Shown here: piece after piece, positions 3,901 to 19,428 of the stretch
Layout: every line of letters begins with the position of its first letter
Numbering within the stretch: the stretch's first letter is position 1
Virus record (IMG/VR): IMGVR_UViG_3300025879_002033
Coordinates: 1-33,444 of that record
Source: a virus
Reading direction: 5' to 3' (one strand)
DNA length: 33,444 nucleotides
Notes under the pieces: model-generated
Database searches by the model: none
Told to the model about the DNA's origin: nothing
The model's input: only the letters and a program-made list of their open reading frames with translations
Made by a program: the position numbers and the translations under genes

Positions 3901-6179
3901 CTGTCATCGACGAGCTTGACGCTGTTGGTACGCAGTGGAACGAATGGGAAACTAACTGGACTGGTGTTGATAGATCTTCAACCAGCCAAAGAACTGGACG
4001 TCGTCGTGGCGGTTGGTTCAACCGCTGGACACAACCAGGTGTTGCAACCACTACAACAACTACTGTAACTCAAGGGCAGTCTAGAACTGGTATTGAGACA
4101 TTTGTTTCTCCTGAAACAATTAACACCGAGATCGGCGATCGCGTAGTTGAAATTAACTTTGCACCATTCATTCGCTCGCGTATCATTAACTTTAAAGGTT
4201 CGCGCCTTAAGCCGAATACTCAAGTCTATGCATTCTTTGACGGAATTAATGTCAGCACATTTGTACGCGCCGAGGCCTCTTTCCTTCGTCACTCCGAGAA
4301 TGATAACCCAGTCTTGAATGGTAAGAATACACTGAGTGCTCACCCAGTAGGTGCAACAACACTTACAACAAATGCGAATGGTGAAGTAATTGGTTCATTC
4401 TTTATTCCGAATAACTCTGCAACTTTCTTTAAGACTGGTACTCGTGAATTTAAGCTGACTGATAGTGTATCAAACGATGATGCATTTGCGACTACTCAGG
4501 CGACGGCAAATTATTCTGCAAAGGGTTTGATCGAGACAAAAGAAAACGTTACGATCTCTACTCGTGTTCCTCAACTTGAAAAGCGCGAGGTAAGCGACAA
4601 CAGAATAATTAGTAATACCTCTACTCGTACAACTGTAAGATGGTATGATCCTCTTGCTCAGTCCTTTGTGGTTCCACTTGATGGCGGTGCGTTTATCACT
4701 GCAATCGATTTGTTCTTCCATACAAAAGACAGCAATATTCCGGTTACGCTCCAGATTCGTGAAATGGAAAATGGTATTCCTACTCAACGTATCGTACCTT
4801 TCTCTGAGCTTACAAAACCAGCGGCGGATGTTAACGTTGTAGATCTTAATACGAACTTGCCTGATCCTACACTGGCAACAACATTCACATTCGATGCTCC
4901 TGTGTATCTTCAGGACGGTATGGAATACTGCTTTGTGGTACTTGCTAACTCAAATGAGTACAATGTATGGTATGCTGGTATCGGCGAAGATGACTATACA
5001 ACAGGTAACCGAATCTCGAAACAGCCTTATGCTGGTGTATTGTTTAAATCTCAGAACGCTTCTACATGGACTCCAGATCAAAACAAAGATCTTAAGTTTA
5101 CTATCAAGCGTGCAGAGTTTGACACATCAGTTAATTCACAGATTGTTCTTGAGAATGGTGAGGTTCAACAACGTCAGCTGATTAAGAATCCATTCGCTAC
5201 CACATCAGGTTCGAATGTAATTCGAGTAGCTCACAGATCACACCACTTGTTTGAAAATACTAACTCAATTCCTTCGTATGTCACTATTGCAAATGCGACG
5301 GACGTAAATGGTATTCCAGCTGCGGAACTTAATACAACTCATGAAGTTCAGAACGTTGAAATGGATTCGTATGAGATTGTGGTTACTACAGTCGCAACCG
5401 GGACAGGTATTGATGGTGGAACTGCAGTAACAGCTACTGAAAACCAACTGTATAACACATTCTATACTAATTTGGCCCAGGTTAACTTGCCTGGAACCAA
5501 TACAACATGGGGTGTACGTACATCAACAGGTATGAGCTTGGGTGCAACATCACCTACTCCATACGTTACTCAAACAAGCTTCGCTCCGATTATTGTAAAT
5601 CAGAACGTAGACATGTTGAGCCCAGGTGTTGTTGCTTCTCTTGACAACGAGCAATCAGGTAAGACATTCTTCTTGCGTGGTACTCTGTCGTCAACGCAGA
5701 CTAACTTGTCTCCGGTTATTGACCTGGAACGAGCATCGATCTTTACGATTGCAAACCGCATTGATAACCCTGTTGCTACTGCGACTCCTGGTTACAACGT
5801 GGTTGATGACTTCTATGACGAAACTGATCCGGTACTTGGTTCATCGAAAGCAAAGTATCTGACTAAAAACGTAAAACTGGCCGATGCAGCAGACGGTGTT
5901 CGTATCTTTATGGATGTGAATAGACCTTCATCTTCTTCGGTTGATGTTTACTACCGAGTTTCAGATAACGAAGAATCAATTGACGGGTTGAACTGGATCC
6001 ATGCAGTTCCAGAAGAACCAATCCCGTTTGATGATGCATATGGATACAATGAGTCAGAGTTCATTATTGATCCTCCTGGTGTCTTTACGGTGTTTGCTGT
6101 TAAGATTGTAATGAAAAGCTCTAACTCGTCTCGTGTACCAACAGTTAAAGACTTGAGAGTGATTGCACTACAACCATGA
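918..6179 (+). CDS. Large virion structural protein with DUF4815-type N-terminal region
   Basis: This 1753-residue protein begins with a segment (YDDF..GLSPKEKYNRVLFRPG then QARELTQIQSILQHQ, residues ~10-55) typical of DUF4815 proteins of marine T4-like phages, which are virion structural proteins probably at the baseplate or tail-fibre connection. A middle region (~840-1040) is helical and polar. Residues ~1040-1060 are rich in Arg, Trp and Thr (TTTTTTVTQ). A C-terminal half includes a DPLAQSFVVP motif followed by beta-rich domains, as in family members. There is no signal peptide or catalytic motif. It starts 13 bases after the gp8-like gene and overlaps the next gene by four bases (ATGA), implying one transcript and translational coupling. 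Family assignment is from pattern recognition; exact position in the virion is inferred. Confidence 0.82.
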   Translation: MAIKFNIEPYYDDFNVAGSDGLSPKEKYNRVLFRPGHAVQARELTQIQSILQHQISSVGNHLFEEGAMVIPGHASVEPALDYVKLSAINETDLNNLLGKIFVGADTGLQAKVVAVAPAAGVDPDTIYVKYQNTGTSDEKVFDDSEIITVGSYSGTVASNGTGFGSVAFIDEGIYFIENNFVVVKSDQLILDKYDTDPSYDIGLEVTESIATSAEDVSLNDIAIGTPNYAAPGAHRYKITTKLVKQANEANTLEKFLLLLRITDGEVQYKVRSTDYSIIEDTLARRTFDESGNYTVRPFMATINEHQAINTPGDEAKLAIGLESGKAYVRGYEIETLGTRYVNVDKARDYALFEAASVPMLVGNYVEVQNVDGIPDINTYGKMSIYDTAGGAGSVIGFARARSFVYAGAGKYRLYLFDIQMNAAESFQDARSFKLASTPEFLSDIVLTSGNAIIQEPNRNSMVFRLPFDRVKTCDSQADDAPDDFNYVYFTNRDVGSSLVASGQATFSTVGTNELFEPFDDENWVITVATGGSSGTIVALSSGDVNIQSGSENVVVSGLGTYEGETVRLIAGVKRTLTHKSKSLTGGEGAGSDNVRLYPISSPSNTGWMSLDRGDGYRLIAVYQSADTSTDATINDEDVTEYYEFDNGQRDNFYDLCAVRLRPQTAFRPKGRLLVKFEYFSHSGAGDFFSVDSYGGLEDTDGNIVRYEDIPDFKSRNTGELIELRSAIDFRPRIDNSGGNFSGTGASTTTCPEPLTTFTTDIQYYLNRVDKLYLDKDGNFGVTKGIPSLDPKLPEDPKDAMVIYNVMIPAYTLNTAEVGIQMLDNKRYTMRDIGRLDKRINSLEYYTSLSLLEQQAANADIIDEATQTRRTKSGFLVDSFASHSVGNVLSNEYRAAIDRSNRVLRPAFNEDNVRLLMNNVLSSDYARHGDIVTLPYTEQALATQGVASATINVNPYEVFSWEGSIELSPSTDEWKDTTRRPDVTVNQDGVFDAMMSVIDELDAVGTQWNEWETNWTGVDRSSTSQRTGRRRGGWFNRWTQPGVATTTTTTVTQGQSRTGIETFVSPETINTEIGDRVVEINFAPFIRSRIINFKGSRLKPNTQVYAFFDGINVSTFVRAEASFLRHSENDNPVLNGKNTLSAHPVGATTLTTNANGEVIGSFFIPNNSATFFKTGTREFKLTDSVSNDDAFATTQATANYSAKGLIETKENVTISTRVPQLEKREVSDNRIISNTSTRTTVRWYDPLAQSFVVPLDGGAFITAIDLFFHTKDSNIPVTLQIREMENGIPTQRIVPFSELTKPAADVNVVDLNTNLPDPTLATTFTFDAPVYLQDGMEYCFVVLANSNEYNVWYAGIGEDDYTTGNRISKQPYAGVLFKSQNASTWTPDQNKDLKFTIKRAEFDTSVNSQIVLENGEVQQRQLIKNPFATTSGSNVIRVAHRSHHLFENTNSIPSYVTIANATDVNGIPAAELNTTHEVQNVEMDSYEIVVTTVATGTGIDGGTAVTATENQLYNTFYTNLAQVNLPGTNTTWGVRTSTGMSLGATSPTPYVTQTSFAPIIVNQNVDMLSPGVVASLDNEQSGKTFFLRGTLSSTQTNLSPVIDLERASIFTIANRIDNPVATATPGYNVVDDFYDETDPVLGSSKAKYLTKNVKLADAADGVRIFMDVNRPSSSSVDVYYRVSDNEESIDGLNWIHAVPEEPIPFDDAYGYNESEFIIDPPGVFTVFAVKIVMKSSNSSRVPTVKDLRVIALQP

Positions 6180-6394: not shown

Positions 6395-9358
6395 ATGGCA
6401 GCTAATTTTATAAATTTAACCGATACACTCGAAGAGTGGAGAGTCAAAGCTAATGAAGTTTATGGCAAAGTCGGTGATCTAGACACACTCGTAAAAGACT
6501 CTACTGTGATTTACACTGGAGTCATTGGCCAAAATGCCAATGACTTTACTGGTACACATGCTACATTTACGGTAACGAGATTTAATGGTTCATACTCAGT
6601 AGCTATTACGAGTGGAGGATCTGGCTACGATGTATCAGACACTGTTATTGTAAATGGTACAGATCTAGGTGGATCCTCGGGTACAAACGACGCAACAATC
6701 ACCATTACAGCCGTAGATCCAGGGTTTGCTGCCACCGATGCTACTATTACTGGTGTTGCGGTTGGTGACCTTATCTCTGAAGTAAATGGTTTACGCGCCG
6801 AGCTTGGATCACTTATTAACTTTACTCTAAATACAGATACAAGCACATTTTACGAAGCAGTAAATGAGCTTGAAAACATTATCCGTACAGAGGCTACTGG
6901 CGACGCTAATTATGCATTGACAACTGATGCACATAACCTTGTTGCTGCGATTAACGAAATTGAAGCTTCTCTACGTGGCGCAAATGCTGACTATGTTTTA
7001 AATACAGATTCAAGTGATGTAGTATCAGCTATTAACGAATTTCAAACCGAGATCGGCCGGATCGAAGACTTTGATGCGCAAGGATCTAGTGCAAATGCTT
7101 TGGTAGACTATGTCGACCTTGGTACTACTATTGTATCTGCTATTAATGCGCTGAAAGACAAAGCGGATATAAATGCTGATATCCTTGGCGGTGTCGTTGC
7201 AGATGACTATGACGGTCCAGATACCAATGTAGTAAGTGCGCTTAACTCGCTGTTTAACCGATCTGATCTTGGTACGCTCGATGATGTATATGTTCGTCGT
7301 AGTGGCACACTCGATATGGAAGGCTTGTTCCAACTTCACAGCACTGGTATTACATCTAATGCCAATAACATGTTGCTTAAAACTGGAGCTACTGATGTAA
7401 CTGCAGTTACTATTAACGCAAGTAACCAGAACGTTGGTATTGGCGGAACACCCGGTACAAATAAACTAAAAGTAACCGGATCTATTAATGCAACAACCGG
7501 ACTGTACTGGGATGGTGACTCTATTGACACTCGCTATCTAAGAAGTGATAACGGTGCACCTCAGATCCTTCACATCGATACTGAAATTGTGTCGTCTCTC
7601 GACTTAAATCCGGATCCAGGCAAAACAGTTACTATTGGTGGTGCAGTCGTAACAAACGATGACTTTGGATTCCTTGAGTGGGTTCAAGACCAAGTTGGTG
7701 CGATGGTTACAGCAAACACCGAAGAGCGTGGTATCTCGGCAGTTTACAATGACTCAACTGGTAAACTCAACTTTGCAATTGCTAACAACTCGCACAACCA
7801 CATAGTTGCCAACATTACTGATTTTACTGAAGAAGTTCAAGATACTGTAGGAGCTATGATTTCTGGTAACACAGAAAATGGTATTGCAGTAACGTATAAC
7901 GATACTTCTGGCAAGCTAAACTTTGACGTTAACGATCCTGTGATTACAATCTCAGGTGAAGCTTCTGGTTCTGCTACTATGACGAACCTGGGCAATACCA
8001 GTATCTCAGTTACGCTAGATCACGAAGCAATTCAAGACGCTGTTGGAGAAATGTTGACAGGAAATACCGAAACAGGTATTAACGTCACATATGACGACAC
8101 CGGTAACAAAATCAACTTTGCGCTTACTGCGTCACCTAAAGTTATTTTGAGTGGTGATGTAAGCGGTTCTGTTACACTTACAAACGTTGCAACTGGTGAC
8201 TATACGATTACCACGGTCATTGCCGATGATTCTCACAATCATACAATTTCAAACATTGATAACTTTACCGAAGAAGTTCAAGATATTGTAGGCACAATGA
8301 TCAACCCAACTAATATTGAGGCTGGTCTGAGTGTAACATATGATGATGAAACCGGTAAGATTAACTTTGATGTTAACGATCCAACAATTACTCTGAGTGG
8401 AGATGTTACTGGTACTGCTACCATGACTAACCTCGGCTCAATTGATATTACTACAACTGTTGCTAATGATTCGCATAACCACGATGGTCGGTATTATACG
8501 GAAACCGAGTCGGATTCAAGGTTTGCAAATGTTGCTGGTGATACATTCACTGGTAACGTTACAATTCAAGATGCAAACCTGAATGTTCAAAGGGACATTT
8601 ATATCGGCGAAAATGGTGCGGGTGATTCTAGTCTTTATTTTTACGACGATAATTCAGACACTTGGCGTGGCATTGAATGGGACGACTCAGCTAATGCCAT
8701 GGTCGTAGAAGATAACGGCGGTACACTGAGAACTATTGTTCACTCTGGTAATGTCGCTGGATATACTGTAACTAATGCGACAAATGCAGTATCATCGACT
8801 AACGCAGAATATATTAATGTTGATGAAACAAATACCAATGCATCATACCAGGTTATGTTTACCAATCAAAATGGCACTGGTTATCAAAGACCTTATATTG
8901 ATACAGATAATGGTCATTTGGTATATAACCCATCATCTCATACTCTTACTGCTGGTATCTTCTCGGGTACTGCGACCAATGCACGATATGCTGACTTGGC
9001 GGAAAAATACTTAGCAGATGGAGAATACGAAGTTGGTACTGTAATCGCTGTTGGTGGTGTTGCTGAAGTTACTGCAGCCGATATTACTAACCAACACTCA
9101 GTCCTTGGCGTTGTATCTGATAAACCTGCTTACTTGATGAACAGCGAACTTGAAGGTGGCACAACTGTTGCACTAAAAGGTCGTGTTCCAGTCAGGGTTG
9201 TCGGTAATGTCAAGAAGGGCGATCGTCTCGCTCCATCTATGGAGTCTGGTCTGGCCACAGTGAAAAACGAAAAAGATGCATGGTCATTTGCTATCGCGCT
9301 TGAAGATGGATCTGGTACTCCTGAAAATCCAGGGGTAGTTGAGGCTGTTATCCTATGA
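6395..9358 (+). CDS. Long tail-fibre-like virion protein with repeats and a Peptidase_G2-like C-terminus
   Basis: This 987-residue protein is built like a trimeric fibre. After a helical N-terminus (~1-40) and a SGGSGY module (~70) come helical NAINE/NALKD repeats (~155-300). Four repeats follow (~425-690) of the form [EE]VQD.VG.M....TE.GI.VTY.D..GK.NF.V, each followed by SGD.[SG]T.T.TN, with SHNH motifs between them, and then a DGRYYTETESDSRF fibre motif (~690-710). The last ~110 residues (ADLAEKYLADGEYEVGTV ... VALKGRVPV ... KKGDRLAPS) resemble the Peptidase_G2 / intramolecular chaperone-type ends of phage fibres, which can self-cleave after trimerisation. I cannot confirm the catalytic residues. 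It overlaps the next gene by ATGA. It is probably a tail or collar fibre; receptor binding is not proven. Confidence 0.75.
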   Translation: MAANFINLTDTLEEWRVKANEVYGKVGDLDTLVKDSTVIYTGVIGQNANDFTGTHATFTVTRFNGSYSVAITSGGSGYDVSDTVIVNGTDLGGSSGTNDATITITAVDPGFAATDATITGVAVGDLISEVNGLRAELGSLINFTLNTDTSTFYEAVNELENIIRTEATGDANYALTTDAHNLVAAINEIEASLRGANADYVLNTDSSDVVSAINEFQTEIGRIEDFDAQGSSANALVDYVDLGTTIVSAINALKDKADINADILGGVVADDYDGPDTNVVSALNSLFNRSDLGTLDDVYVRRSGTLDMEGLFQLHSTGITSNANNMLLKTGATDVTAVTINASNQNVGIGGTPGTNKLKVTGSINATTGLYWDGDSIDTRYLRSDNGAPQILHIDTEIVSSLDLNPDPGKTVTIGGAVVTNDDFGFLEWVQDQVGAMVTANTEERGISAVYNDSTGKLNFAIANNSHNHIVANITDFTEEVQDTVGAMISGNTENGIAVTYNDTSGKLNFDVNDPVITISGEASGSATMTNLGNTSISVTLDHEAIQDAVGEMLTGNTETGINVTYDDTGNKINFALTASPKVILSGDVSGSVTLTNVATGDYTITTVIADDSHNHTISNIDNFTEEVQDIVGTMINPTNIEAGLSVTYDDETGKINFDVNDPTITLSGDVTGTATMTNLGSIDITTTVANDSHNHDGRYYTETESDSRFANVAGDTFTGNVTIQDANLNVQRDIYIGENGAGDSSLYFYDDNSDTWRGIEWDDSANAMVVEDNGGTLRTIVHSGNVAGYTVTNATNAVSSTNAEYINVDETNTNASYQVMFTNQNGTGYQRPYIDTDNGHLVYNPSSHTLTAGIFSGTATNARYADLAEKYLADGEYEVGTVIAVGGVAEVTAADITNQHSVLGVVSDKPAYLMNSELEGGTTVALKGRVPVRVVGNVKKGDRLAPSMESGLATVKNEKDAWSFAIALEDGSGTPENPGVVEAVIL

Positions 9359-9766: not shown

Positions 9767-10138
9767 ATGGCAGATCAAACACAGCGTAGTCCAAAGCAAA
9801 ATAATTATCCAAGCAATAGTCCTATTGCAGGCCTAAGAGGCGAGATTACTGCTGGTGCTTCAATTGATGCGGCTGATATTAACGGGCTAATTAACTTAAT
9901 TAACGGTTGGATTGGTCATACGCACGTCTATGACGATGCATACCAGCTTGCGACCTTTGGTAATACTGGCGATCGAACCGATTACTACGAAGACAAAACA
10001 ACTGCCAATACTGCTTTATCTACAGTTGGTCAAGTTTCTTCTGGTAGTGCAATAACTGCGGCTAAACACAACGAAATGAAAGATCGCAGTAATTCACTTC
10101 GCGGACACAGCCACGTTATTGATGACCGTACTTCTTAA
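9767..10138 (+). CDS. Small virion-type protein with two HxH modules
   Basis: This 123-residue protein contains two copies of a ~25-residue module. Residues 33-57 (I-D-A-A then N39, HTH at 51-53, DD at 56-57) and residues 96-120 (I-T-A-A then N102, HSH at 114-116, DD at 119-120) align without gaps. In both, the Asn lies exactly 12 residues before the first His. HxH motifs bind iron in the trimeric needles and fibres of T4-type tails (for example gp12), so a trimeric metal-binding tip or fibre module is plausible. The same module makes up the core of the 71-residue Cys-rich peptide at 13155. The gene ends the + strand structural run; its TAA overlaps the stop of the convergent hydroxylase gene, with no terminator visible between them. 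Virion location is inferred from the module and the neighbours. Confidence 0.7.
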   Translation: MADQTQRSPKQNNYPSNSPIAGLRGEITAGASIDAADINGLINLINGWIGHTHVYDDAYQLATFGNTGDRTDYYEDKTTANTALSTVGQVSSGSAITAAKHNEMKDRSNSLRGHSHVIDDRTS

Positions 10139-10665
10139 ATGCGCATATATTCTTTGAGAATTTCGTACCATTCGTCGTAATCAAAGTCTAACACAAAGAT
10201 AGAACGTTCTTCATTGGTGTCATTATATCCATAATGATTCTTTGTAGCGTCAAAAGCGAACAGTTCACCCATCTTCCAATTATAGGTTTTACCCTCAACT
10301 ACAAAACCTGATTCACCTTCTGGCAAAACTGTTGGAAGGTGAAGAATAATTTTACGTTTTCCCCAGTCAATATGGTTATGTTCAGGAGTCTTTGCTCCAG
10401 GCCTCAATACTAACCAACCAGTAGCTCTATGCTCAGGTCCTTCACGCACCAGCTCAGTTGTAATTGGGCAGCGTCTCTGTGAACTCGGCCATGCCTTGTG
10501 ATCCCACCATAAAGCTACTCCACTCCACCCCGGAACTTGCGTTTTATCTTTGTCCCAACCCGGTAGCGGAATTCTTCTGCGGTTAAAGTTAGTGTATTCT
10601 TCAATAATCGCATCTTGGTTTGCGATAATATTGTTAATAAATTCACGTTTTTCATTTACGTCCAT
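10135..10665 (-). CDS. Aspartyl/asparaginyl beta-hydroxylase-like 2-oxoglutarate/Fe(II) oxygenase
   Basis: This 176-residue protein matches the catalytic domain of the Asp/Asn beta-hydroxylase family, which uses Fe(II), O2 and 2-oxoglutarate to hydroxylate a substrate. Candidate iron ligands are H98 (in HNHID) and H144 (in KNHYGYND). R154 (NEERS) is the expected 2-oxoglutarate-binding arginine, and H109 sits 11 residues after H98. The H98-H144-R154 spacing (46 and 10 residues) equals the His679-His725-Arg735 spacing I recall for human AspH. An Asp (D100) occupies the third facial-triad position where AspH has Gly, so this enzyme may have a 2-His-1-Asp site. It is the last gene of a - strand operon and overlaps the upstream desaturase by 10 bases. 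The substrate is unknown: a protein side chain (perhaps a virion or peptide residue) or a lipid headgroup are both conceivable. Confidence 0.85.
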   Translation of the reverse strand: MDVNEKREFINNIIANQDAIIEEYTNFNRRRIPLPGWDKDKTQVPGWSGVALWWDHKAWPSSQRRCPITTELVREGPEHRATGWLVLRPGAKTPEHNHIDWGKRKIILHLPTVLPEGESGFVVEGKTYNWKMGELFAFDATKNHYGYNDTNEERSIFVLDFDYDEWYEILKEYMRI

Positions 10666-11360
10666 TTTAAAGCCTTTATGATGTTACCTGAGATGTCTAG
10701 ATTTCCGTTAAATTGATTAGGTTTATAATGATGGTCTTTATGCCAAGCATCTGCAAAAACAAACGGCCATGCCCAAGGTATGTTAGAAACTTTGCCATTT
10801 AAATGAGATATAACATTCACAAATAGGTTTGTGAATAAAATTGCTAATGCTGTAGGTACTACGATTAAAGTTAAATACCACATAGCACCAAAAACACTAA
10901 ATAAAACAGTATGGCTTAGTATGACTATGTATAACTCGTTTTTTGTAAGCCATGCAAAGTACTTGTCTCTCATTTTATCAGTTGCCAATTTAAAATTAGC
11001 TTCATGATATCTATGTCTGAAGGTACAATATAGCCAACCTTTATGATCTGGTGAATGAGGATCTTTATCAGTATCAGAGTGTTTATGATGAGTTCTATGC
11101 CATGCAGACCATGTAATTGGAGTACCTAATAGAAATACTACTCCCGCAAAAGATAAAACACATTGAACCCACCGTGGCGGATTCCATACTCTGTGCGAAG
11201 CCCACTTATGTAAGAATGCACTATTTACAAAGTCTGAAATAAACCAAAAAGAAATGTATGCTAATATAATATGAATTAGGCTAGCATACATTAACCAAAC
11301 TGGAACGGTTATTAGAAAAAGATAAAATAGCCATGTAGTAATAAACGGTGTATACTTCAT
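10656..11360 (-). CDS. Membrane fatty-acid desaturase (acyl-CoA Delta9 type)
   Basis: This 234-residue integral membrane protein carries the three histidine boxes of acyl-CoA/acyl-lipid desaturases: HKWASH (51-56), HRTHH (88-92, followed by K and D) and HKDHH (207-211). An extra NVISHLNG His lies near 186. These ligate the di-iron centre that inserts a cis double bond into a fatty acyl chain. Hydrophobic segments around 8-45, 62-85 and 145-180 give the usual two hairpin pairs. It is shorter than typical bacterial enzymes (~300 residues), mainly at the N- and C-termini. Its ATG overlaps the stop of the second desaturase (ATGA on the - strand). Desaturases are known as auxiliary metabolic genes in marine phages. 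Changing membrane fluidity during infection is the simplest role. Confidence 0.88.
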   Translation of the reverse strand: MKYTPFITTWLFYLFLITVPVWLMYASLIHIILAYISFWFISDFVNSAFLHKWASHRVWNPPRWVQCVLSFAGVVFLLGTPITWSAWHRTHHKHSDTDKDPHSPDHKGWLYCTFRHRYHEANFKLATDKMRDKYFAWLTKNELYIVILSHTVLFSVFGAMWYLTLIVVPTALAILFTNLFVNVISHLNGKVSNIPWAWPFVFADAWHKDHHYKPNQFNGNLDISGNIIKALKWT

Positions 11361-12136
11361 CGCCGATACCTCAATGATTCCGGTTTTGCAATTAGTTTGA
11401 TGACGTGTTTACCAATGTCAGGTTGTTTCCAATTCCATCCGAATTCAAATGTTCCTGGTTTATAGTGGTGGTTGTTGTGCCATCCTTCTCCCCACATGAG
11501 TAGTCCCATAAGAAAGGTATTCTTAGAACTGTCGTCTACATCATGATCGGTATGACCAAATACGTGTGCACCAACTGTAATCCAAGAGATCCAATGGATA
11601 CTAAACATAGTGACTACTACATATCCGTATAAAAAAAGGTTTACATCTATCAATAAAAGTGTTATAATATATGCTGATAGAACTTTAAAGTAGTTACGGT
11701 GAAACCATTTATGAAGAGGATCACTGGCAAGATCTTTAATTGATTTTGGTGAGACGTGATGAGATGGCCAGAAGTTAAACCAGTATTTCACCTTTGTGAG
11801 AAAAGGTTGGCCAGCAATTCTATGTGGATCTTTGTCAGTGTCTGCGGTCTTATGGTGCAAGCGATGTGTGCCTGACCAGGTTATTGTAGATCCTACAGTA
11901 TTAATTACGATGAGAAAGTGTAGTATTGATTCTATGATTTTATTGCGTGGCTGAAATGACCTGTGTGCAGACCATCTGTGCATGCCAATAGAAATACCTA
12001 GATGAACAATAATCCAGAAGGCAAATACACTGTAAAGAAAATAGTGAGTGTTCCAGTTGAAGATTAGAACTAATGGACCTCCAATGTATGCCAACAGTTG
12101 AAAGAACTTGATTTTAAAATTCCATGAAAGATTCAT
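11357..12136 (-). CDS. Membrane fatty-acid desaturase (second copy, divergent)
   Basis: From the ATG at 12136 this is a 259-residue membrane desaturase with boxes HRWSAH (53-58), HRLHH (91-95) and HNNHH (220-224) plus an HVFGHTDHD stretch (201-209). I chose this start because GGTGAG lies just before it (GGTGAGAAAATG on the - strand), and because the longer frame to 12256 would run across the divergent late promoters and into the opposite gene. Hydrophobic segments are at ~11-48, ~70-88 and ~153-197. It is the first gene of the three-gene - strand operon driven by the TATAAATA at 12184-12177. The two desaturases differ strongly in sequence, so this is not a recent duplication. They may act at different positions or substrates, or work as a heteromer. 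Confidence 0.88.
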   Translation of the reverse strand: MNLSWNFKIKFFQLLAYIGGPLVLIFNWNTHYFLYSVFAFWIIVHLGISIGMHRWSAHRSFQPRNKIIESILHFLIVINTVGSTITWSGTHRLHHKTADTDKDPHRIAGQPFLTKVKYWFNFWPSHHVSPKSIKDLASDPLHKWFHRNYFKVLSAYIITLLLIDVNLFLYGYVVVTMFSIHWISWITVGAHVFGHTDHDVDDSSKNTFLMGLLMWGEGWHNNHHYKPGTFEFGWNWKQPDIGKHVIKLIAKPESLRYRR

Positions 12137-12146
12137 TTTCTCACCG

Positions 12147-12154
12147 TATAAATA
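12147..12154 (+). promoter_or_regulatory. T4-type late promoter, TATAAATA (+)
   Basis: An exact TATAAATA lies 40 bases upstream of the ATG at 12195. T4-type late transcription (gp55 sigma factor with the sliding clamp) needs only this -10 box. It should drive the 318-aa gene, the Cys-rich peptide and the radical SAM cluster. Confidence 0.75.
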
Positions 12155-12176
12155 GTAATGACCGAAGTTATGTTTA

Positions 12177-12184
12177 TATTTATA
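12177..12184 (-). promoter_or_regulatory. T4-type late promoter, TATAAATA (-)
   Basis: The + strand reads TATTTATA, giving an exact TATAAATA on the - strand, 40 bases before the desaturase ATG at 12136. It should drive the desaturase-desaturase-hydroxylase operon. Confidence 0.72.
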
Positions 12185-12194
12185 GGACCTTGAT

Positions 12195-13151
12195 ATGAAG
12201 CCAGTAGTACTTTTTAGCTGTGGTGACACTACGCCAACACCATGGGATGATATCACAAATGCGTGGAATAAATCCTTTGATAATCATGGATGGTGGTATT
12301 CTATGAAGGATGCCGACGCGAATGTCTATCACTATCGGCGCGAACGTAGCAAGCTTGTATTTGCAAAATCAAAAGATCTGAAGAAACAATTTGTAATTAT
12401 CAAAGAGTTTATTGGTGAGAACAACCCATCATTTAAAGACTTAAATCGAGAAATCGATATGAAGTTTATTATGACATGGTTAAACCAAAACAAGAACGGA
12501 TCAATTGGTTTTGGTGTACCACTTAAAGTACTACAAGGTGAAGATAAACCAGATGTTCTCCAGTCTGCACTTTATTACATAAGAGATCCGTTTCCAGGCG
12601 GACATGTATTAAATGCAAAGAATGGTGTAGCAATCACAACAGATGAAGAACCTGATACCGAGATGATTACGTATTTCTATGCGTATCGTCTTAAAGATCA
12701 GCCTATCTATTTTATTATTTTTAACCCCGATATGATTTCACTTTCAGGTAATGTGGAATTTAGTGGTGAGCGTGCACATTATAGAATTATTGACCAACAC
12801 GCCGGAGCCTTTGCAAACCAGCTTTTAACTCCAAAGATGAGTAAGAATGCTTTCCCACTGGATATGAATTGGTATGCGGTAACCGGTGACTCTTTTACAA
12901 TGGATGTCGGTAAATTAAGTTCTGTTACTAATGCTTATGGAATTTATCCACAAGGCGTAAAAGTCATGAGCGACCTTAAAACTGAGCATGTAAAAAATAA
13001 TAAATATAACGTTACGTTCAATAAAGGACAAACACACGGGTATATAAGTCTCAGACTAAATACTGGTACTATGTTTGACTACTCACTTATTGGAAGTAAA
13101 AACAGACTAATATATAATATTAGAATAGACAAAAAATTTAAAGAGGAATAA
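12195..13151 (+). CDS. Unknown 318-residue protein, first gene of the radical SAM/peptide cluster
   Basis: I do not recognise this family. The protein is soluble and aromatic-rich, with beta-strand-like stretches throughout. Examples are FYAYRLKDQPIYFIIFNPD (~160-180) and, in the last third, YGIYPQGVKVMSDL with a Lys/Asn-rich, strand-rich end (NKYNVTFNKGQTHGYISLRL). There is no signal peptide or membrane segment. The only Cys is near residue 9 (LFSCGDTTPTPWDD). It starts 40 bases after a TATAAATA box with TAGGA as ribosome site, and ends three bases before the Cys-rich peptide gene, so the two are co-expressed. The N-terminal part (PWDDITNAWNKSFD) could be a fibre attachment segment. It could be a virion carrier for the peptide, a partner protein or an unrelated virion component; all three are inference. 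Confidence 0.7.
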   Translation: MKPVVLFSCGDTTPTPWDDITNAWNKSFDNHGWWYSMKDADANVYHYRRERSKLVFAKSKDLKKQFVIIKEFIGENNPSFKDLNREIDMKFIMTWLNQNKNGSIGFGVPLKVLQGEDKPDVLQSALYYIRDPFPGGHVLNAKNGVAITTDEEPDTEMITYFYAYRLKDQPIYFIIFNPDMISLSGNVEFSGERAHYRIIDQHAGAFANQLLTPKMSKNAFPLDMNWYAVTGDSFTMDVGKLSSVTNAYGIYPQGVKVMSDLKTEHVKNNKYNVTFNKGQTHGYISLRLNTGTMFDYSLIGSKNRLIYNIRIDKKFKEE

Positions 13152-13154
13152 TCA

Positions 13155-13370
13155 ATGGCTAATGAAAATACCAGCGCGGCCAGTGAAGCTGACTTTCCCT
13201 CTGGCTCAGTTAGCACTAAAAACACAGGTGATACTATTAGTGCTGACACATTCAACCAGATGCTAGACGTCCTTGACGATCTTGCTACGCATAGCCACAT
13301 CTTTTATGATGACTATGCTACAGTGTGTGAATGCCAGTGCCAGTGTGCGTGTAGCCGCGGAACAATCTAG
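13155..13370 (+). CDS. Putative RiPP-like precursor: HxH virion module with C-terminal CxCxCxCxC tail
   Basis: This 71-residue protein has a disordered Ser/Thr/Asn-rich N-terminus (1-27). A ~25-residue module follows (I28, A30, N34, HSH at 46-48, DD at 52-53) that aligns with both modules of the protein at 9767. The short tail has five alternating cysteines, C58, C60, C62, C64 and C66 (CECQCQCACSRGTI). A small protein with a helical leader-like half and a Cys-rich end, immediately followed by SPASM radical SAM genes, is the layout of sactipeptide, ranthipeptide and other radical SAM RiPP loci. Here the leader appears borrowed from a phage structural module. The SD is AGAGGAAT and the gene lies three bases after the 318-aa gene. 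Alternatives are a virion tip that binds metal through the Cys tail, or a protein modified in place without cleavage. Confidence 0.72.
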   Translation: MANENTSAASEADFPSGSVSTKNTGDTISADTFNQMLDVLDDLATHSHIFYDDYATVCECQCQCACSRGTI

Positions 13371-13390
13371 ATACTTGAGAAGGATACATT

Positions 13391-15124
13391 ATGGATGACG
13401 CTCGACGTAAAAGAATAGAAGAACACCGTGCTAGTGTGATTGCCACGGATAGTGGACTGCAATTTAAGTCGATTGATATCATCACACCGAAAGGCTTGGC
13501 AAAGAAAAATAAGCTAATCACTGTCATGCCAGCACCTGATGAGACTATTGTTCCATTAGGAGATGTTCCTTATCTGTTTTCTCAATTGAAACAGATGAAT
13601 CTTATTTTAACAAATGCATGTAACCTTGCGTGCACATACTGCTATGAGCAGCACGGAAAGGACTTTGGTAGATTTACTCCAGAGAGCCTCTTGACTGCTT
13701 ACAGATTTCTGAATAATTCGAACGACCATCAAAGAAAGGTATTTCAATTCTTTGGGGGTGAACCTCTTATTCACAAAGATCTGATCATGAACTTTATTCG
13801 TGATAACCAGGAAGAACTTCGAGAGAACTCAAAGGGTGATTTTAACACAGTCGTTGGTTGTGTTACTAATGGTCTTTTGCTGACTCAGGACCTGGTTGAT
13901 GAGTACTTTAGTTATGACTTTACCTGGATGCTTATCTCACTAGATACAGACAGAGCCGAAGTAGATCATCGAGAAATCGGACAAGAGAAAATTAACAAGC
14001 TGATGAATCAGTTACGTACTATTCCCGATGCACCAAAGCAGGAAAAACGGGTAACGATTCGTGTTACGCTTGCACGTGAGAATGCACCGTACTTTAGAGA
14101 CTTTGTTGATAACCTATATGCAGTTGGGATACGTCGACTTGTAGTTCATCCATTGGTTCTTGATTCTGCTCGTGGATTTATTCAATGGGAAGAACATGAA
14201 TGGGCAACACTGCATGACGATATCATTAACTCCCTTAAATACTATCACGACCTCCAGATTCACTTCTCGGAAGGTGTAGGTAAAAAAGGTGAAGAGAACT
14301 GCATGATCGGATCTGATATGATTGCGATCGATGGTTCAGGTGACTTTAGCGGATGCTACTTCTTTACTAACCAGAAGGCAGGTCCTGCCGGTAAAACTAT
14401 CCTTGGTAATGTCTTTGATGATAAAATCTATCTGGATAGGTACAAAGGTTTCCAAAAAGAATATGCTAAGATGTTCGAAGAGGAAGAACAGTGTAAGACG
14501 TGTGACTATAAGAATGCGTGTTATCAGTGTCCGGCCGGGAACATGGATACTGGATCTAAAACACTCTTTAGGCCAGATGATATGTGTCAGAAGATTGTTA
14601 AGTTGTTTGTTGACCTACAAGAAGATATTGCAAAGAAACAGTTCAGAACAAAATACGACATTCTGGTTCAAGCGTTGGATAATGAAGGATGTAATATCAC
14701 ACAGCTAAAAGCTTTGGCATACCTCATATTCTTCTATGTCTATAACTATCACCCAGACAAAGATATTGTCCATGAGAGAGTTGAAGAACGGTTTAAGACG
14801 CCTGAGCATCTTCTCGGTTTCTGGCTTGATCTTATGAACTCTGAGCATAACCTCCGTGACATTCAAAAGTCTGAGTTTATGGATTACATTGCATCTAAAA
14901 TTAATGATTCAAAGCAGTGTACAATTGATGAGTTCTATTATAAAGCTCTTAACAAAATGGGTAAAACACCGGCAGTTAACGTAAAGGCCGAGACAGACCA
15001 ACAGAAGATTTTCTACCTAGCTTTGCTACATATGATTATTCTTATTCCTGAAACGAAAGCACTTGAAGATACATTCAAATATAAATTGGTAGATGATAAT
15101 GACACCGCTCGAGAAACGCCTTAG
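13391..15124 (+). CDS. Radical SAM/SPASM enzyme, peptide- or protein-modifying type
   Basis: This 577-residue enzyme has the radical SAM cluster motif C77-x3-C81-x2-C84 followed by Tyr, and a GGEP motif (122-125) that contacts SAM. After the partial barrel come SPASM-type cysteines for auxiliary iron-sulfur clusters: C304, C322, then C368-x2-C371-x5-C377-x2-C380 and C399. The canonical pattern ends Cx2Cx5Cx3C, so this one is one residue shorter. SPASM enzymes include anaerobic sulfatase maturases and RiPP thioether- or carbon-bond-forming enzymes, which act on protein or peptide substrates. A C-terminal extension of ~175 residues (400-577) is mostly helical and unrecognised; it could bind the substrate. 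It starts 20 bases after the Cys-rich peptide with GAGAAGGA as ribosome site. Pairing with that peptide is inferred from adjacency. Confidence 0.9.
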   Translation: MDDARRKRIEEHRASVIATDSGLQFKSIDIITPKGLAKKNKLITVMPAPDETIVPLGDVPYLFSQLKQMNLILTNACNLACTYCYEQHGKDFGRFTPESLLTAYRFLNNSNDHQRKVFQFFGGEPLIHKDLIMNFIRDNQEELRENSKGDFNTVVGCVTNGLLLTQDLVDEYFSYDFTWMLISLDTDRAEVDHREIGQEKINKLMNQLRTIPDAPKQEKRVTIRVTLARENAPYFRDFVDNLYAVGIRRLVVHPLVLDSARGFIQWEEHEWATLHDDIINSLKYYHDLQIHFSEGVGKKGEENCMIGSDMIAIDGSGDFSGCYFFTNQKAGPAGKTILGNVFDDKIYLDRYKGFQKEYAKMFEEEEQCKTCDYKNACYQCPAGNMDTGSKTLFRPDDMCQKIVKLFVDLQEDIAKKQFRTKYDILVQALDNEGCNITQLKALAYLIFFYVYNYHPDKDIVHERVEERFKTPEHLLGFWLDLMNSEHNLRDIQKSEFMDYIASKINDSKQCTIDEFYYKALNKMGKTPAVNVKAETDQQKIFYLALLHMIILIPETKALEDTFKYKLVDDNDTARETP

Positions 15125-16190
15125 TCAAGTTGAAATAGTAACAATATATCTAGGAAACAAGTGTAACTTCGATTGCAATTACTGTGACCGAGGTTATATT
15201 GAATCCATAGGTAACCAAGCCGTGGCTCGTGGCACTGCAGATGAGATGTGGGAATTCTTTAAGTGGATTAGATTCACAAAGAACAACGTCAGGTATGTGT
15301 CTCTACATGGTGGAGAACCACTCCTTTTTGCAAAACGTATCGATGAAATATTAGGTTGGCTTACACCGATGGCCGACCGCAATGGCTGGGATATCGGTAT
15401 TACAACAAATGGATCTCTTGTAAAAGAGAACGAATGGCTGTACGAAAAATGGACAGGTCATATCAAAACAACTGTTAGTTACGACTTCATGTTTCAAGAA
15501 GAAAATCGTGACAAACTAGATGTGATGGAAATGGCCGAAGTGTTAAACCAACACAGTCCAGAGTGGAAATGGCAGACCGTCATTCCAATCGATGATCCTC
15601 GTGCATTCTCAATGGATTATATTAAAGACCTTGTCAACACCTGTTATAAAACTGGTTGTAGAGTAATTAATGTAATTCCACTTCGTCATCACCGTGGCAA
15701 AGATAAGTTTACTGTTCTTATTGATAATATCGATCTAGAACAATTCCTCGGTGCATTTATTGACTTCATACAAATCCTGTATATTAAAAAGCTGACCGTG
15801 TTTATTGATGGTAACTATACCATGATTGACAAAGCTTATTTAGGTGAACACCAAAAAGTAATCTTATCTCCTGATGGTTATCTGTATCCAGAGTTTGACT
15901 TCCTAGAATACCAATTACCACAGTTTAGAATCGGCAATTGGAAGAAACGAGAAGTGTGGATTCCTACCGGAGATGGTGATAGAATTCTACCTGAATGCCA
16001 TGAGTGTCCTATGAACCCGGTATGTGGTTTAAAATACTTGTACAAGATGTTTGATGAGAAGCCAAAGGGCAACTGTAAGAAATTTTATAAGTATATGAAC
16101 TTCGCTACCTTTCACTTAATGAAGATGAAAGACAAGAAGTCTATGTTAGAATGGATTGGTATTAAAGAAGACTTCGAGGTAAAATCATGA
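15093..16190 (+). CDS. Radical SAM enzyme with a short Twitch-like auxiliary cluster domain
   Basis: This 365-residue enzyme has C24-x3-C28-x2-C31 (CNFDCNYC) for the SAM-binding 4Fe-4S cluster and HGGEP at 72-76. A reduced C-terminal set of cysteines, C302-x2-C305-x5-C311 and C328, fits a single auxiliary cluster rather than the full seven-Cys SPASM. It starts inside the end of the previous gene (32-base overlap). The ATG at 15099 is a possible alternative start two codons later. Its TGA overlaps the next ATG (ATGA). Such tight coupling argues that it works in the same pathway as its neighbours, probably on the same peptide. The reaction (thioether, C-C crosslink, epimerisation or other) cannot be told from sequence. 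Confidence 0.87.
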   Translation: MIMTPLEKRLSQVEIVTIYLGNKCNFDCNYCDRGYIESIGNQAVARGTADEMWEFFKWIRFTKNNVRYVSLHGGEPLLFAKRIDEILGWLTPMADRNGWDIGITTNGSLVKENEWLYEKWTGHIKTTVSYDFMFQEENRDKLDVMEMAEVLNQHSPEWKWQTVIPIDDPRAFSMDYIKDLVNTCYKTGCRVINVIPLRHHRGKDKFTVLIDNIDLEQFLGAFIDFIQILYIKKLTVFIDGNYTMIDKAYLGEHQKVILSPDGYLYPEFDFLEYQLPQFRIGNWKKREVWIPTGDGDRILPECHECPMNPVCGLKYLYKMFDEKPKGNCKKFYKYMNFATFHLMKMKDKKSMLEWIGIKEDFEVKS

Positions 16191-17376
16191 ACGATTTCGA
16201 CACATATACAAACCCGGCAGAATTTTGGCTAAAAAAGGATGCACTTCGGTCACTTGACTATGATCTCTATTTTAGCCTCGGCAAGCGTTATTACTGTGAT
16301 GCCGGTTGCAAGGTTTGTTATATTGCCGACAATCTGAAACAGACCAAAAACCTGGACATTTATGATGATGACCTCGAAAAATATCACAATGAATGGTTTG
16401 CATTCTTTGAATATTTTGGTACAATAAGAACAAATGATGACCTATATTATTTTAAGCACAAGTACCCAAAACAATATGAATGGTATCTGAAATATGGTGA
16501 ACACTTTGAACTGTGTATCACAATGAATGGTTTACATTCTTTGAATATTTTGGTACAATAAGAACAAATGATGACCTATATTATTTTAAGCACAAGTACC
16601 CAAAACAATATGAATGGTATCTGAAATATGGTGAACACTTTGAACTGTGCATTACAGACAATGCCATATTCAGATTGCTTAAAATACCCGAGATGAAACT
16701 GAAATCGGTAGGCGATATCACACTATCAACTTTGTTCCTTGAAACCATAGGTGTAGAAAAGGTACTTGATGCCTGTAAAGAACTATACAAAAGATACGGT
16801 GTGAAAAAGATCAAATACATCGATTGTGGTAATCCCGAGATATTTAAGGATGTCATCGAATGGGTAAAAGAGAATCAACTTGCCGACTGCCTACACCACG
16901 ACTTTAGAACAAATCATCGTGAGGTATTTGCATACGACTGGGTAAGCGGTCAATCAACATGGATTACACACGACGATGGTAAAGTTGTCCAAGTGTACCG
17001 TGAATCAATCCATCTATATTATGATCGGTTCTATTTCTCATCTGATGAGGCATCCGATCTTGACAAATCAGTATTTTACTCTTTTTCTGGTAAGATAAAT
17101 ATTAATGAATTCATTTATGGACTAGTGAATACGAAAAAAGAGGTATACGGCAGACTTGCAAAACTACCCCTTGAAAAGATCTTTATTGATTATTACAATG
17201 CAACACAAGAGTTTATCATAAATCCTAATTTTAACTTTATACCTAGATATATGTTTCCACCTACTGCTAAATTCTTTTATGAAATGGAAAAGCTCGGATG
17301 GCAACAGACAAAATATGGACTTTATAACAACGACGGCGATCAATTAAAACCACTATTGGAAAGAATTAAATCATGA
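16187..17376 (+). pseudogene. Third radical SAM gene, split by a frame-shifting 134-bp tandem duplication
   Basis: Two overlapping frames, 16187-16561 (124 residues) and 16513-17376 (287 residues, GTG start), are the two halves of one gene. The first carries C37-x3-C41-x2-C44 (CDAGCKVCY), the radical SAM signature. The region 16382-16515 is repeated at 16516-16649 with one mismatch. 134 is not a multiple of three, so the duplication shifts the frame and the first frame stops at 16559-16561. Removing one copy gives a single uninterrupted frame of 351 residues. No clear GGEP or SPASM cysteines are visible; IDCGNPEIF may be the GGEP equivalent. Flanking genes overlap by ATGA on both sides, so the intact form belongs to the operon. 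It may be a recent loss-of-function change, a phase-variable state or an assembly error. Reinitiation at the GTG could still give a two-piece protein. Confidence 0.8.
16382..16649 (+). repeat. 134-bp tandem direct repeat, two copies
   Basis: Copy 1 is 16382-16515 and copy 2 is 16516-16649, directly abutting. I see one difference, G at 16400 against A at 16534 (Ala against Thr codon). The boundary sequences (TATCACA at the copy starts, CATTACA after copy 2) share short similarity that could have promoted slippage. The duplication breaks the radical SAM gene at 16187-17376. Confidence 0.9.
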
Positions 17377-18686
17377 GCTATGCGAAGTTTAAATTGGGTG
17401 ATTCACACATCTATTATGAGATTGATAGCAACACACTTTATAATGGAAGTGGTGAACAACTGTCAATGCCACCAGAACAAGATCCAGAGTTTTATGAATC
17501 TGTTCAGCATTTACATGGTACAACAAAAAAGATTAATAAGCCTGTAGCACTACGTATTCTATTCGGCCATGCATGTAACTATGACTGCTCATACTGTATG
17601 CAAAAAGACATTGGTAACCCCAATGAGCGTGTCAAGAATATGTTCCTCCAAAGGTTTATGGAACAGATCAGGGATAACCTGGATCTAGAAAACCTCGAGC
17701 GTGTTGAGCTCTGGGGTGGCGAACCATTTCTTTATTGGAATGATATCAAGCCTGTTATGGAATTGCTTGACAAAGAGGGACGTCACTTCTTCATCTCAAC
17801 TAATGGATCTCCATTACGTCAAAAGCATGTCGACTTCTTTAAAACACTAAAAGCTTCTGTTCAGTTGTCTATCTCACATGATGGACCAGGCCAGAATCTT
17901 CTACGAGGCGAAGATATCCTTGTAAAGGATGCGGTCGCATCGGTACTAAAACAGTTTGATGACTTGTATCCAAAGATTCAGTTTTCGTTTAACTGTGTTG
18001 TAAGTAAACTGAATTATGATCTATTTAAAATTAATGCTTATTTTAAACGAGCAGCAGACCGTATTGGTATTACAAGACCACGGATTAGTTTTATCCTTGG
18101 TAGAAACTATGATGAAACCGACTCACAGAACTCAGCTCACTTTCTTATTGGTGATGAAGATAGGCCTAAGTTTAAGAAGATCTTGCATGACTATATCGAT
18201 GCCGAGGTTGCTCAGCTCAAAGAGCACGGATTAGATAAGCAACAAGCACTTATTCAGTCTAACCTGGTAGTGGGTAACGAAGGTGCTTATGGCTTTGCCA
18301 AGATCATGAGACGTCAAGTACCGGTTACAATGACGTCTAGTTGTGGTGCAGATGCTGCTGATATTCTTTCATTGGATATCAAAGGTAATATTAGACTATG
18401 TCCACATACCGATGAAAAATATAATGTAGGTAAGATTGACGCTATCCCTATGGCCCAGGTAAAACACCTTGACCTGGACCGCAAGAAGTCTCACTGCGGA
18501 GATTGTAATGTAAGACGACTATGCAAATCAAGTTGTCCAATTAAATTTCCAGACTCAGTGTTTATGCAAAATTGTAAAAATGAAAAAGTATGGTACGGTG
18601 CGATTCAGACAAAGGCATTTGGTCTGATCTTTGGCCAAGAGCCAGAACTAGTTGAATTAGGAATCGAGGAAATCAATGAAGCTTAA
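17373..18686 (+). CDS. Radical SAM/SPASM enzyme with canonical seven-cysteine SPASM domain
   Basis: This 437-residue enzyme has an N-terminal ~60 residues that might bind a peptide leader, then C68-x3-C72-x2-C75 (CNYDCSYC) and WGGEP (114-118). The SPASM domain is textbook: C324, C343, then C375-x2-C378-x5-C384-x3-C388 and C401, enough for two auxiliary 4Fe-4S clusters. This domain is characteristic of enzymes that modify peptides or proteins, including sactipeptide and ranthipeptide synthases and sulfatase maturases. Its ATG overlaps the end of the broken radical SAM gene (ATGA), and its last 11 bases overlap the oxygenase gene. Together with the enzyme at 13391 this gives two full SPASM enzymes in one phage operon. 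The substrate is presumed to be the Cys-rich peptide, which is not proven. Confidence 0.92.
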   Translation: MSYAKFKLGDSHIYYEIDSNTLYNGSGEQLSMPPEQDPEFYESVQHLHGTTKKINKPVALRILFGHACNYDCSYCMQKDIGNPNERVKNMFLQRFMEQIRDNLDLENLERVELWGGEPFLYWNDIKPVMELLDKEGRHFFISTNGSPLRQKHVDFFKTLKASVQLSISHDGPGQNLLRGEDILVKDAVASVLKQFDDLYPKIQFSFNCVVSKLNYDLFKINAYFKRAADRIGITRPRISFILGRNYDETDSQNSAHFLIGDEDRPKFKKILHDYIDAEVAQLKEHGLDKQQALIQSNLVVGNEGAYGFAKIMRRQVPVTMTSSCGADAADILSLDIKGNIRLCPHTDEKYNVGKIDAIPMAQVKHLDLDRKKSHCGDCNVRRLCKSSCPIKFPDSVFMQNCKNEKVWYGAIQTKAFGLIFGQEPELVELGIEEINEA

Positions 18687-19428
18687 TCTTGAAAGAATTA
18701 ATGCTAAAAAAGCCGAGCTAGAGAATCACCCTATCTTGGTAACAAATACAATTCAAGATCTAGAAGACTTAAAAATCTTTATGAGCACCCATTCATATGC
18801 TGTATGGGACTTTATGTCTTTACTCAAGACTGTGCAGCATCATATTGCACCATCAGGTCATATGTGGCTGCCTAACCGGGGGAACCGGTCAGAGCTGGCC
18901 AGGATGATTAATGAAATTGTTATGTGTGAAGAAAGTGATATTGTTCCAGGTGGTGGACATATGAGTCACTTTGATATGTACATTCTGGCCATGAAAGAGA
19001 TCGGTATAGATACTAAGGTACTTGAAATATTTATTGATTACGTTAGCAGAGGTGACTCAAAACCGTATCATATCTGTTCAGATAAAATTGCTACGAAGTT
19101 TATGAGAACAACATTTGATTTGATTGACCGTGGACCACATTGTGCGGCCGCTGCTTTCGCCTTTGGTCGAGAGACGATCTTGCCTGATGTATTCCAGAGA
19201 CTACTAGATCAACTTGACTTGAACTCGGTAAAGGCACCGAAGCTTAACTATTACTTAAAACGCCATATCGAAGTAGATGGTGATGACCATGGACCTATGT
19301 CACTTCAGCTAGTTGACTTCTTTATTGATGGTGATCCAACCAAATTAATGGAAGCTGAAGAAGCTGCAATTGAAGCGATTACTGCACGAATTGAAATGTT
19401 CGACTCATTAGAAAGTAAATTACGTTAG
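18676..19428 (+). CDS. DUF3050 / heme-oxygenase-like non-heme di-iron oxygenase candidate
   Basis: This 250-residue helical protein matches DUF3050 by eye: SYAVWDFMSLLK near 40-50, NEIVMCEESD at 79-88, a GGGHMSHFD stretch with H95 and H98, AAFAFGRE ending at E166, and KRHIEVDGDDHGP at 195-207 (H197, E199, D201, H205). DUF3050 belongs to the heme-oxygenase-like fold, in which related di-iron oxygenases carry out N-oxygenation, desaturation or C-C cleavage; E, D and H residues in these motifs are the candidate metal ligands. It overlaps the SPASM radical SAM gene by 11 bases and closes the operon. An oxygenase that follows the radical SAM steps, or one that acts on an amino acid or lipid, are both possible. 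The family call is from memory of its motifs; the substrate is unknown. Confidence 0.8.
   Translation: MKLNLERINAKKAELENHPILVTNTIQDLEDLKIFMSTHSYAVWDFMSLLKTVQHHIAPSGHMWLPNRGNRSELARMINEIVMCEESDIVPGGGHMSHFDMYILAMKEIGIDTKVLEIFIDYVSRGDSKPYHICSDKIATKFMRTTFDLIDRGPHCAAAAFAFGRETILPDVFQRLLDQLDLNSVKAPKLNYYLKRHIEVDGDDHGPMSLQLVDFFIDGDPTKLMEAEEAAIEAITARIEMFDSLESKLR

Follow-up and report, generated by a model that had tools for sequence, protein, structure and literature searches.

To our knowledge, the chemistry that radical SAM enzymes perform on peptides concerns small secreted peptides, cofactors and a few enzymes, and no case is known to us from virus particles. The tail fibres of T4-like phages are matured by chaperones, and gp37 contains HxH iron sites; we know of no enzymatic radical modification in this process. 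In the systems of the ranthipeptide/SCIFF maturases (PapB, NF047865; CteB, PDB 5wgg; TIGR03974), a SPASM radical SAM enzyme is encoded beside a Cys-rich peptide. A 2020 report on pelagimyophages described radical SAM genes in the host-recognition cluster, between VrlC and gp14, where they form variable cassettes (PMC7029224). Surveys of auxiliary metabolic genes (AMGs) list many viral radical SAM genes, including 261 instances of 'ahbD' in one survey (PMC9301287, PMC7150976). The Achromobacter phages JWF and 2-1 encode a 'radical SAM domain-containing protein' (phrog_1802). MgoB of the mangotoxin operon is a member of the DUF3050 family (PMC3298696), for which a haem-oxygenase-like structure containing a di-iron site was modelled (PMC4520260). 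Our literature search returned no paper that connects phage tail fibres with radical SAM enzymes, and papers beyond those searched may exist.

Results

The locus was found in a virus record of 33,444 bases, which was analysed at full length and is hereafter called the window. It lies among the tail-fibre genes of a marine phage that is T4-like. Structural phage families (baseplate wedge, VrlC and tail fibres) flank it, and the protein encoded upstream at 918-6179 has 38.7% identity to VrlC of Pelagibacter phage Mosig. The six-gene block that an initial annotation had placed here was found to be real and needed only small corrections. It comprises, all on the + strand, the genes for a small peptide, PEP (13155-13370), the enzymes SAM1 (13391-15124) and SAM2 (15093-16190), the protein P36 (16187-17376), SAM3 (17373-18686) and a DUF3050 protein (18676-19428). 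The overlaps of 4-32 bases that had been described between neighbouring genes exist at the later junctions (32, 4, 4 and 11 nt), but PEP and SAM1 are separated by a gap of 20 nt.

The T4-type late promoter motif TATAAATA is present on the + strand at 12147-12154, 40 nt upstream of the gene at 12195-13151 (g12195), so the transcription unit probably begins at this gene, which belongs to the same unit as PEP and the enzymes. The motif had nine exact matches in the window versus 2.8 expected, eight on the + strand and one on the - strand. Several of them lie shortly upstream of phage genes (e.g., 6250, 12147, 19532, 22342 and 27228), and these sites might help to delimit operons in this phage group. 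The product of g12195 (+ strand, 318 aa) belongs to no known family and is present in nearly all cassettes. Its AF2 model (pLDDT 82.7) was all-beta with an Ig-like/virion-type resemblance, and the Foldseek matches, to the phage lambda tail-tube Ig domain and the Milano collar, were weak; on the basis of this model, the protein may tentatively be placed among Ig-like virion-type proteins. Upstream, the + strand encodes at 9767-10138 a protein of 123 aa that contains two HxH modules (phrog_31780); a relative of it occurs in nearly all cassettes and in some of them lies between P36 and SAM3.

Immediately before the cassette, the opposite strand (10135-12256) carries a pair of fatty acid desaturase genes (10656-11360 and 11357-12256; PF00487) and a gene for a 176-aa protein. 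These genes have a TATAAATA of their own at 12184-12177 (- strand). Desaturase-like and/or 10135-like genes are also located near the cassette in three relatives (L066, L073 and L075).

PEP (71 aa), the proposed substrate, consists of an HxH module and an (XC)5-SRG tail, CECQCQCACSRGTI, whose five cysteines are arranged as C-x-C-x-C-x-C-x-C (C-E-C-Q-C-Q-C-A-C, residues 58-66, 13326-13352). All 45 distinct PEP sequences retained HxH, D-x-Y and (XC)n. Their tails had three to six Cys, and X was Q, N, A, E or D with one exception. A C-terminal Cys-(x)-Arg-Gly was present in 44 of the 45; in the window, Arg-Gly corresponds to residues 68-69 (13356-13361). An alignment of 15 sequences showed a variable N-terminus and invariant M36, H46 and H48 (the HSH motif, residues 46-48, 13290-13298), D52, D53, Y54, C58, C60, C66, R68 and G69. 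The sole PEP without the Arg (L090, NCECECGGGGTI) was found in the sole cassette that has SAM3 without SAM1, SAM2 and P36. This single case suggests, at the level of sequence, that the additional enzymes might act at or near Arg-Gly. In another relative (L085, 9944-10567), the Cys tail is split by an insert of ~130 aa, probably a mini-intein (TACQCNCA / CFAGDTLI...IITKN / CNCTCCTRG), which had no Pfam match at E 0.01. Self-splicing inserts are usually located at conserved functional sites.

Comparison of the N-terminal part of PEP with the HxH modules of the 9767-type protein gave an hhalign E-value of 5.5e-6 and a probability of 86%, from shallow alignments. Because the body of PEP is akin to the HxH modules of another phage protein encoded nearby, PEP looks like a virion protein and not a secreted RiPP; its make-up suggests a structural protein bearing a Cys tail instead of a leader and a core. 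Alternatively, PEP could be a true RiPP, cut from its HxH leader and freed at lysis as a toxin, a signal or a superinfection-exclusion factor. A small precursor encoded beside several tailoring enzymes, with a Cys-rich C-terminal core and a variable N-terminus, would be consistent with such a role. However, the presumed leader is akin to an HxH phage protein, PEP is encoded among tail genes with a late-promoter motif, and neither a protease, a transporter, an immunity gene nor an RRE had a match in the cassette. We consider a true RiPP improbable. The initial annotation had already pointed out that no transporter or leader protease was visible, and none was matched within the cassette: searches of the cassette proteins for RRE, leader protease and exporter yielded no Pfam or NCBIfam match, a divergent RRE being possible. 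An exported RiPP was rejected since the cassette contained no export or protease gene. Of the two fates that had been proposed for the product, release by lysis and display on the virion, display is the better.

Relatives of the locus were collected from viral contigs by searches with PEP, with the DUF3050 protein and with the PEP alignment. The order g12195, PEP, SAM1, SAM2, P36, SAM3 and, in some cassettes, DUF3050, together with a two-HxH protein like that at 9767-10138, was kept in ~40 other viral contigs; these loci are metagenomic and the contigs partly related, so the counts are partly non-independent. The positions of g12195 and the HxH protein differ among groups of cassettes. The dN/dS of the enzymes in the relatives was ~0.02-0.08, which means strong purifying selection. 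The conserved order combined with this selection indicates more than a chance association. A reverse search from SAM2 found 47 loci, and PEP was present in 43 of the 43 whose contig extends to it; the other four (L250, L255, L264 and L269) are on contigs that begin within the enzyme block or at its edge. In L237 and L238, PEP is encoded on the other strand, and in L267 it lies downstream; thus the linkage outlasts rearrangement. The initial annotation had proposed a peptide maturation cassette with radical SAM enzymes, to be doubted if homologous loci lacked the peptide, and the observed linkage supports this proposal. In GTDB genomes, only two MAG contigs had a match, both with the full cassette. 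In phage records, tblastn with PEP, HDO and P36 gave no convincing matches, and the searches of these records found no full cassette in a cultured phage.

The same kind of tail was found in systems with one enzyme. Scanning the DNA of viral contigs for CNCNCNC yielded 120 loci. A SAM gene was located downstream on the same strand, always within 2.9 kb, in 44 of the 59 loci with in-frame C-terminal (NC)n tails, versus 0 of 53 out-of-frame controls (Fisher p 1e-18). For most of the 15 in-frame tails without a SAM gene, the contig ended soon after the tail or the ORF was tiny. When SAM3-type genes were used as the starting point, an (XC)n-tailed protein was encoded upstream in 70 of 80 loci, these being the best-scoring of at least 593 and hence a non-random set biased to top scores. 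As controls for these best 80, the opposite strand gave 8 by a looser test and the downstream side gave 0. Two of the ten misses do have a tail: in L333 it lies just beyond the search distance, and in L334 it is followed by a Hint domain. The window shows this pairing too, with the PEP tail and SAM3 nearby.

Most of the (NC)n-tailed proteins tested were tail fibres according to PHROGs, and two had collagen repeats. The residue X in these tails varied (N, Q, A, E, D), and no Arg-Gly end was seen among the listed tails of this wider set, save for the PEP homologues recovered by the same scan. Many of the tailed fibres are 300-900 aa long; the presence of the same kind of tail on the ends of such proteins also speaks against the interpretation of PEP as a true RiPP. 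The cultured Achromobacter phages JWF and 2-1 encode a tail fibre that ends in NCNCDCNCNCSC followed by a Hint domain, and a radical SAM gene lies two genes downstream. Fusion of a Hint domain directly behind the (NC)n tail was found in JWF, 2-1 and one metagenomic contig (L099:7503-8954, L100:7635-9077 and L334 near 2930). This domain may release or transfer the C-terminus of the tail. In four fibres (L275, L277, L279 and L288), a His-rich DPHHHH stretch was observed directly before the NCNCNC tail; it is possibly a metal site beside the modified tail. We also considered whether g12195 corresponds to the gene that separates fibre and enzyme in the one-enzyme systems, and rejected this because the two had no profile similarity. 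The Fusobacterium phages phiKSUM and FNU1 were considered and set aside.

In both gene contexts, one enzyme family is paired, in a strand- and position-specific manner, with C-termini of the (XC)n type. The best explanation of this pairing is that the tail is the enzyme substrate; the linkage strongly implies this. It could also be supposed that the radical SAM genes are AMGs serving host cofactor metabolism and that the peptide is unrelated, in keeping with the frequent listing of phage radical SAM genes in the AMG surveys cited above. This supposition is contradicted by the linkage to (XC)n proteins, which is reciprocal and specific to strand and position in each of the two systems; it is scarcely credible and was rejected.

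SAM1 (577 aa), SAM2 (365 aa) and SAM3 are members of the radical SAM superfamily, as all three exceeded the PF04055 cut-off of 29.5 bits (E 2.4e-15, 1.8e-10 and 4.2e-14, respectively) and contained CX3CX2C. SAM3 was assigned to SPASM (TIGR04085 / PF13186; 27.4 bits versus the TIGR04085 cut-off of 27) and has the full SPASM Cys set, with C317, C336, C376, C379, C385, C389 and C401 invariant in the family alignment. CX3CX2C and these seven Cys are kept in the cassette and the one-enzyme systems alike. A search for SAM3 in plasmids gave no match. The SPASM score of SAM1 was sub-threshold (15.4 bits), and CX2CX5CX2C was noted in it by eye. SAM2 has one Cys set of the auxiliary-cluster type (C302/C305/C311/C328), which was invariant in 15 relatives. 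In one relative (L018), SAM1 (2477-4120) and SAM3 (6671-8026) were each in two frames in an otherwise complete cassette, which reflects either sequencing error or decay.

The initial annotation had interpreted the block as a sactipeptide- or ranthipeptide-type locus. This could not be upheld: scores against RiPP-maturase families were far under the cut-offs, no RRE/PqqD match was found, and membership in these classes was rejected. The NCBIfam model nearest to SAM1 was PapB NF047865, a ranthipeptide maturase, with 114.9 bits versus a cut-off of 340; SAM2 and SAM3 reached 41.1 and 60.4 bits with this model. Against the SCIFF maturase TIGR03974 (cut-off 425), SAM1 and SAM3 scored 77.2 and 30.2 bits, respectively. 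The best solved relative of SAM1 was the thioether maturase CteB (PDB 5wgg, E 8e-13).

These similarities bear on the reaction catalysed. The SAM3 family could act on the same substrate by other chemistry, epimerising or methylating alternate residues or preparing a tail that binds metal or Fe-S. X and Cys alternate strictly, which would suit a D/L backbone; because X varies (N, Q, A, E, D), the backbone is a plausible target. SAM3 was weakly similar to the peptide epimerase YydG (E 6e-4), and HxH with (XC)n looks like a metal site. However, SAM3 carries the full SPASM Cys set, and both the best solved relative of SAM1 and its best NCBIfam model, though under the cut-off, are thioether or ranthipeptide maturases. 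Other chemistry is therefore a possibility to be taken seriously, albeit the less probable one.

The DUF3050-like gene reported in the initial annotation was confirmed (PF11251, 242.3 bits versus a gathering cut-off of 22.2), and its product has a solved relative, 9vwb (E 9e-47). Absence of this gene from several cassettes indicates that it is accessory. DUF3050 genes of lower identity were also seen in viral contigs without the cassette (L034-L053).

P36 (phrog_36229) is encoded in the window in two pieces, 16187-16561 and 16513-17376. Its frame is broken by a tandem direct duplication of 134 nt (16382-16515 and 16516-16649), a length that is not a multiple of three. The gene had been annotated as a broken radical SAM gene. 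It is indeed split by this duplication, but the enzyme label is less secure: CX3CX2C is invariant, and the Pfam search gave no radical SAM family match. The model of an intact relative had a pLDDT of 93.7 and no significant match among PDB structures, so that the 'radical SAM' label for P36 rests on the motif. The disruption may mean that this copy is impaired or that the duplication is an assembly error. If the cluster were decaying, the pathway would no longer work in this phage, as a frame-shifting duplication might indicate. However, the remaining genes are all intact, P36 is unbroken in relatives on other contigs, and the 99% identity between the two copies means that the event was recent or is an assembly artefact. 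Decay of the cluster is rather unlikely.

Discussion

Judged from genes and their neighbourhoods, the cassette is probably a module for the maturation of a virion protein, in which SAM3 would modify a Cys tail used in host recognition. PEP would be made late, together with the tail-fibre genes, as a small structural protein composed of an HxH module and a flexible (X-Cys)n tail. SAM3 would modify this tail, as the same enzyme family would do on the (Asn-Cys)n C-termini of fibres in many phages. SAM1, SAM2 and P36 could add further changes, possibly at the Arg-Gly or the D-x-Y that lie close beside the Cys run. An optional oxidation could be contributed by the DUF3050 protein. The intein-like insert in L085 and the Hint domains, located exactly in or after the Cys tail, were counted in favour of this explanation. 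Considering that the tails are borne by fibres or by a small HxH protein of the fibre region and that genes for an exporter or a protease are missing from the unit, the product is most likely retained on the virion.

The likeliest reaction of SAM3 would be the formation of thioether bridges from Cys sulphur to neighbouring residues (X being mostly N, Q, E, D or A). This chemistry is favoured because CteB is the best solved relative of SAM1 and because it would be the most straightforward function of a SPASM enzyme whose target is Cys; it is suggested by distant similarity to CteB and PapB-type enzymes. The product would be a rigid tip that withstands reduction in the cytoplasm and serves host recognition. 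We infer the bond formed, the division of labour and the role in adsorption, and also the virion location, the latter on the basis of homology and of the genes nearby.

In a wider sense, we lean towards the view that, in phages of many lineages, the fibre tips are finished chemically by radical SAM enzymes whose targets are (X-Cys)n C-termini, which would be an unrecognised class of virion maturation; within this class, the cassette with four enzymes and DUF3050 would be the most elaborate and may produce a peptide structure that is chemically new. If fibres bear enzyme-modified Cys tails, receptor binding and phage stability need to be re-examined, and a recombinant fibre expressed alone would miss the modification. 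Some of the radical SAM genes listed as AMGs may be tail-maturation enzymes of this kind and, if so, would become virion-maturation genes. The cultured Achromobacter phage JWF makes the question accessible to direct experiment.

Comparison with known systems

According to the initial annotation, no phage-borne cluster of this composition was known; this overlooked both the radical SAM cassettes that pelagimyophages carry, as the consulted part of PMC7029224 describes, and the common one-enzyme version with (NC)n fibres. The pelagimyophage cassettes occupy the same genome region, and that part of the report describes no peptide, partner genes or function for them. T4-like tail-fibre maturation shares with the cassette the tail-fibre region and the HxH motifs. 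The DUF3050 protein has its Pfam family and a haem-oxygenase-like fold in common with MgoB and 9vwb, whereas MgoB belongs to the mangotoxin operon, whose product is non-ribosomal, rather than to a peptide-tail locus. The phrog_1802 protein of phages JWF and 2-1 is SAM3-like and is encoded after the NCNCDCNCNCSC fibre, but it is a single enzyme, a Hint domain follows the tail, and the annotation of these records never connects the enzyme to the tail. SAM1 aligns with the ranthipeptide/SCIFF maturases over ~320 aa. In contrast to those systems, which the cassette approaches only with scores far below the curated cut-offs, its proposed substrate is a tail of alternating X and Cys attached to a phage protein of the HxH type, and it combines four enzymes and a DUF3050 protein in a phage tail locus.
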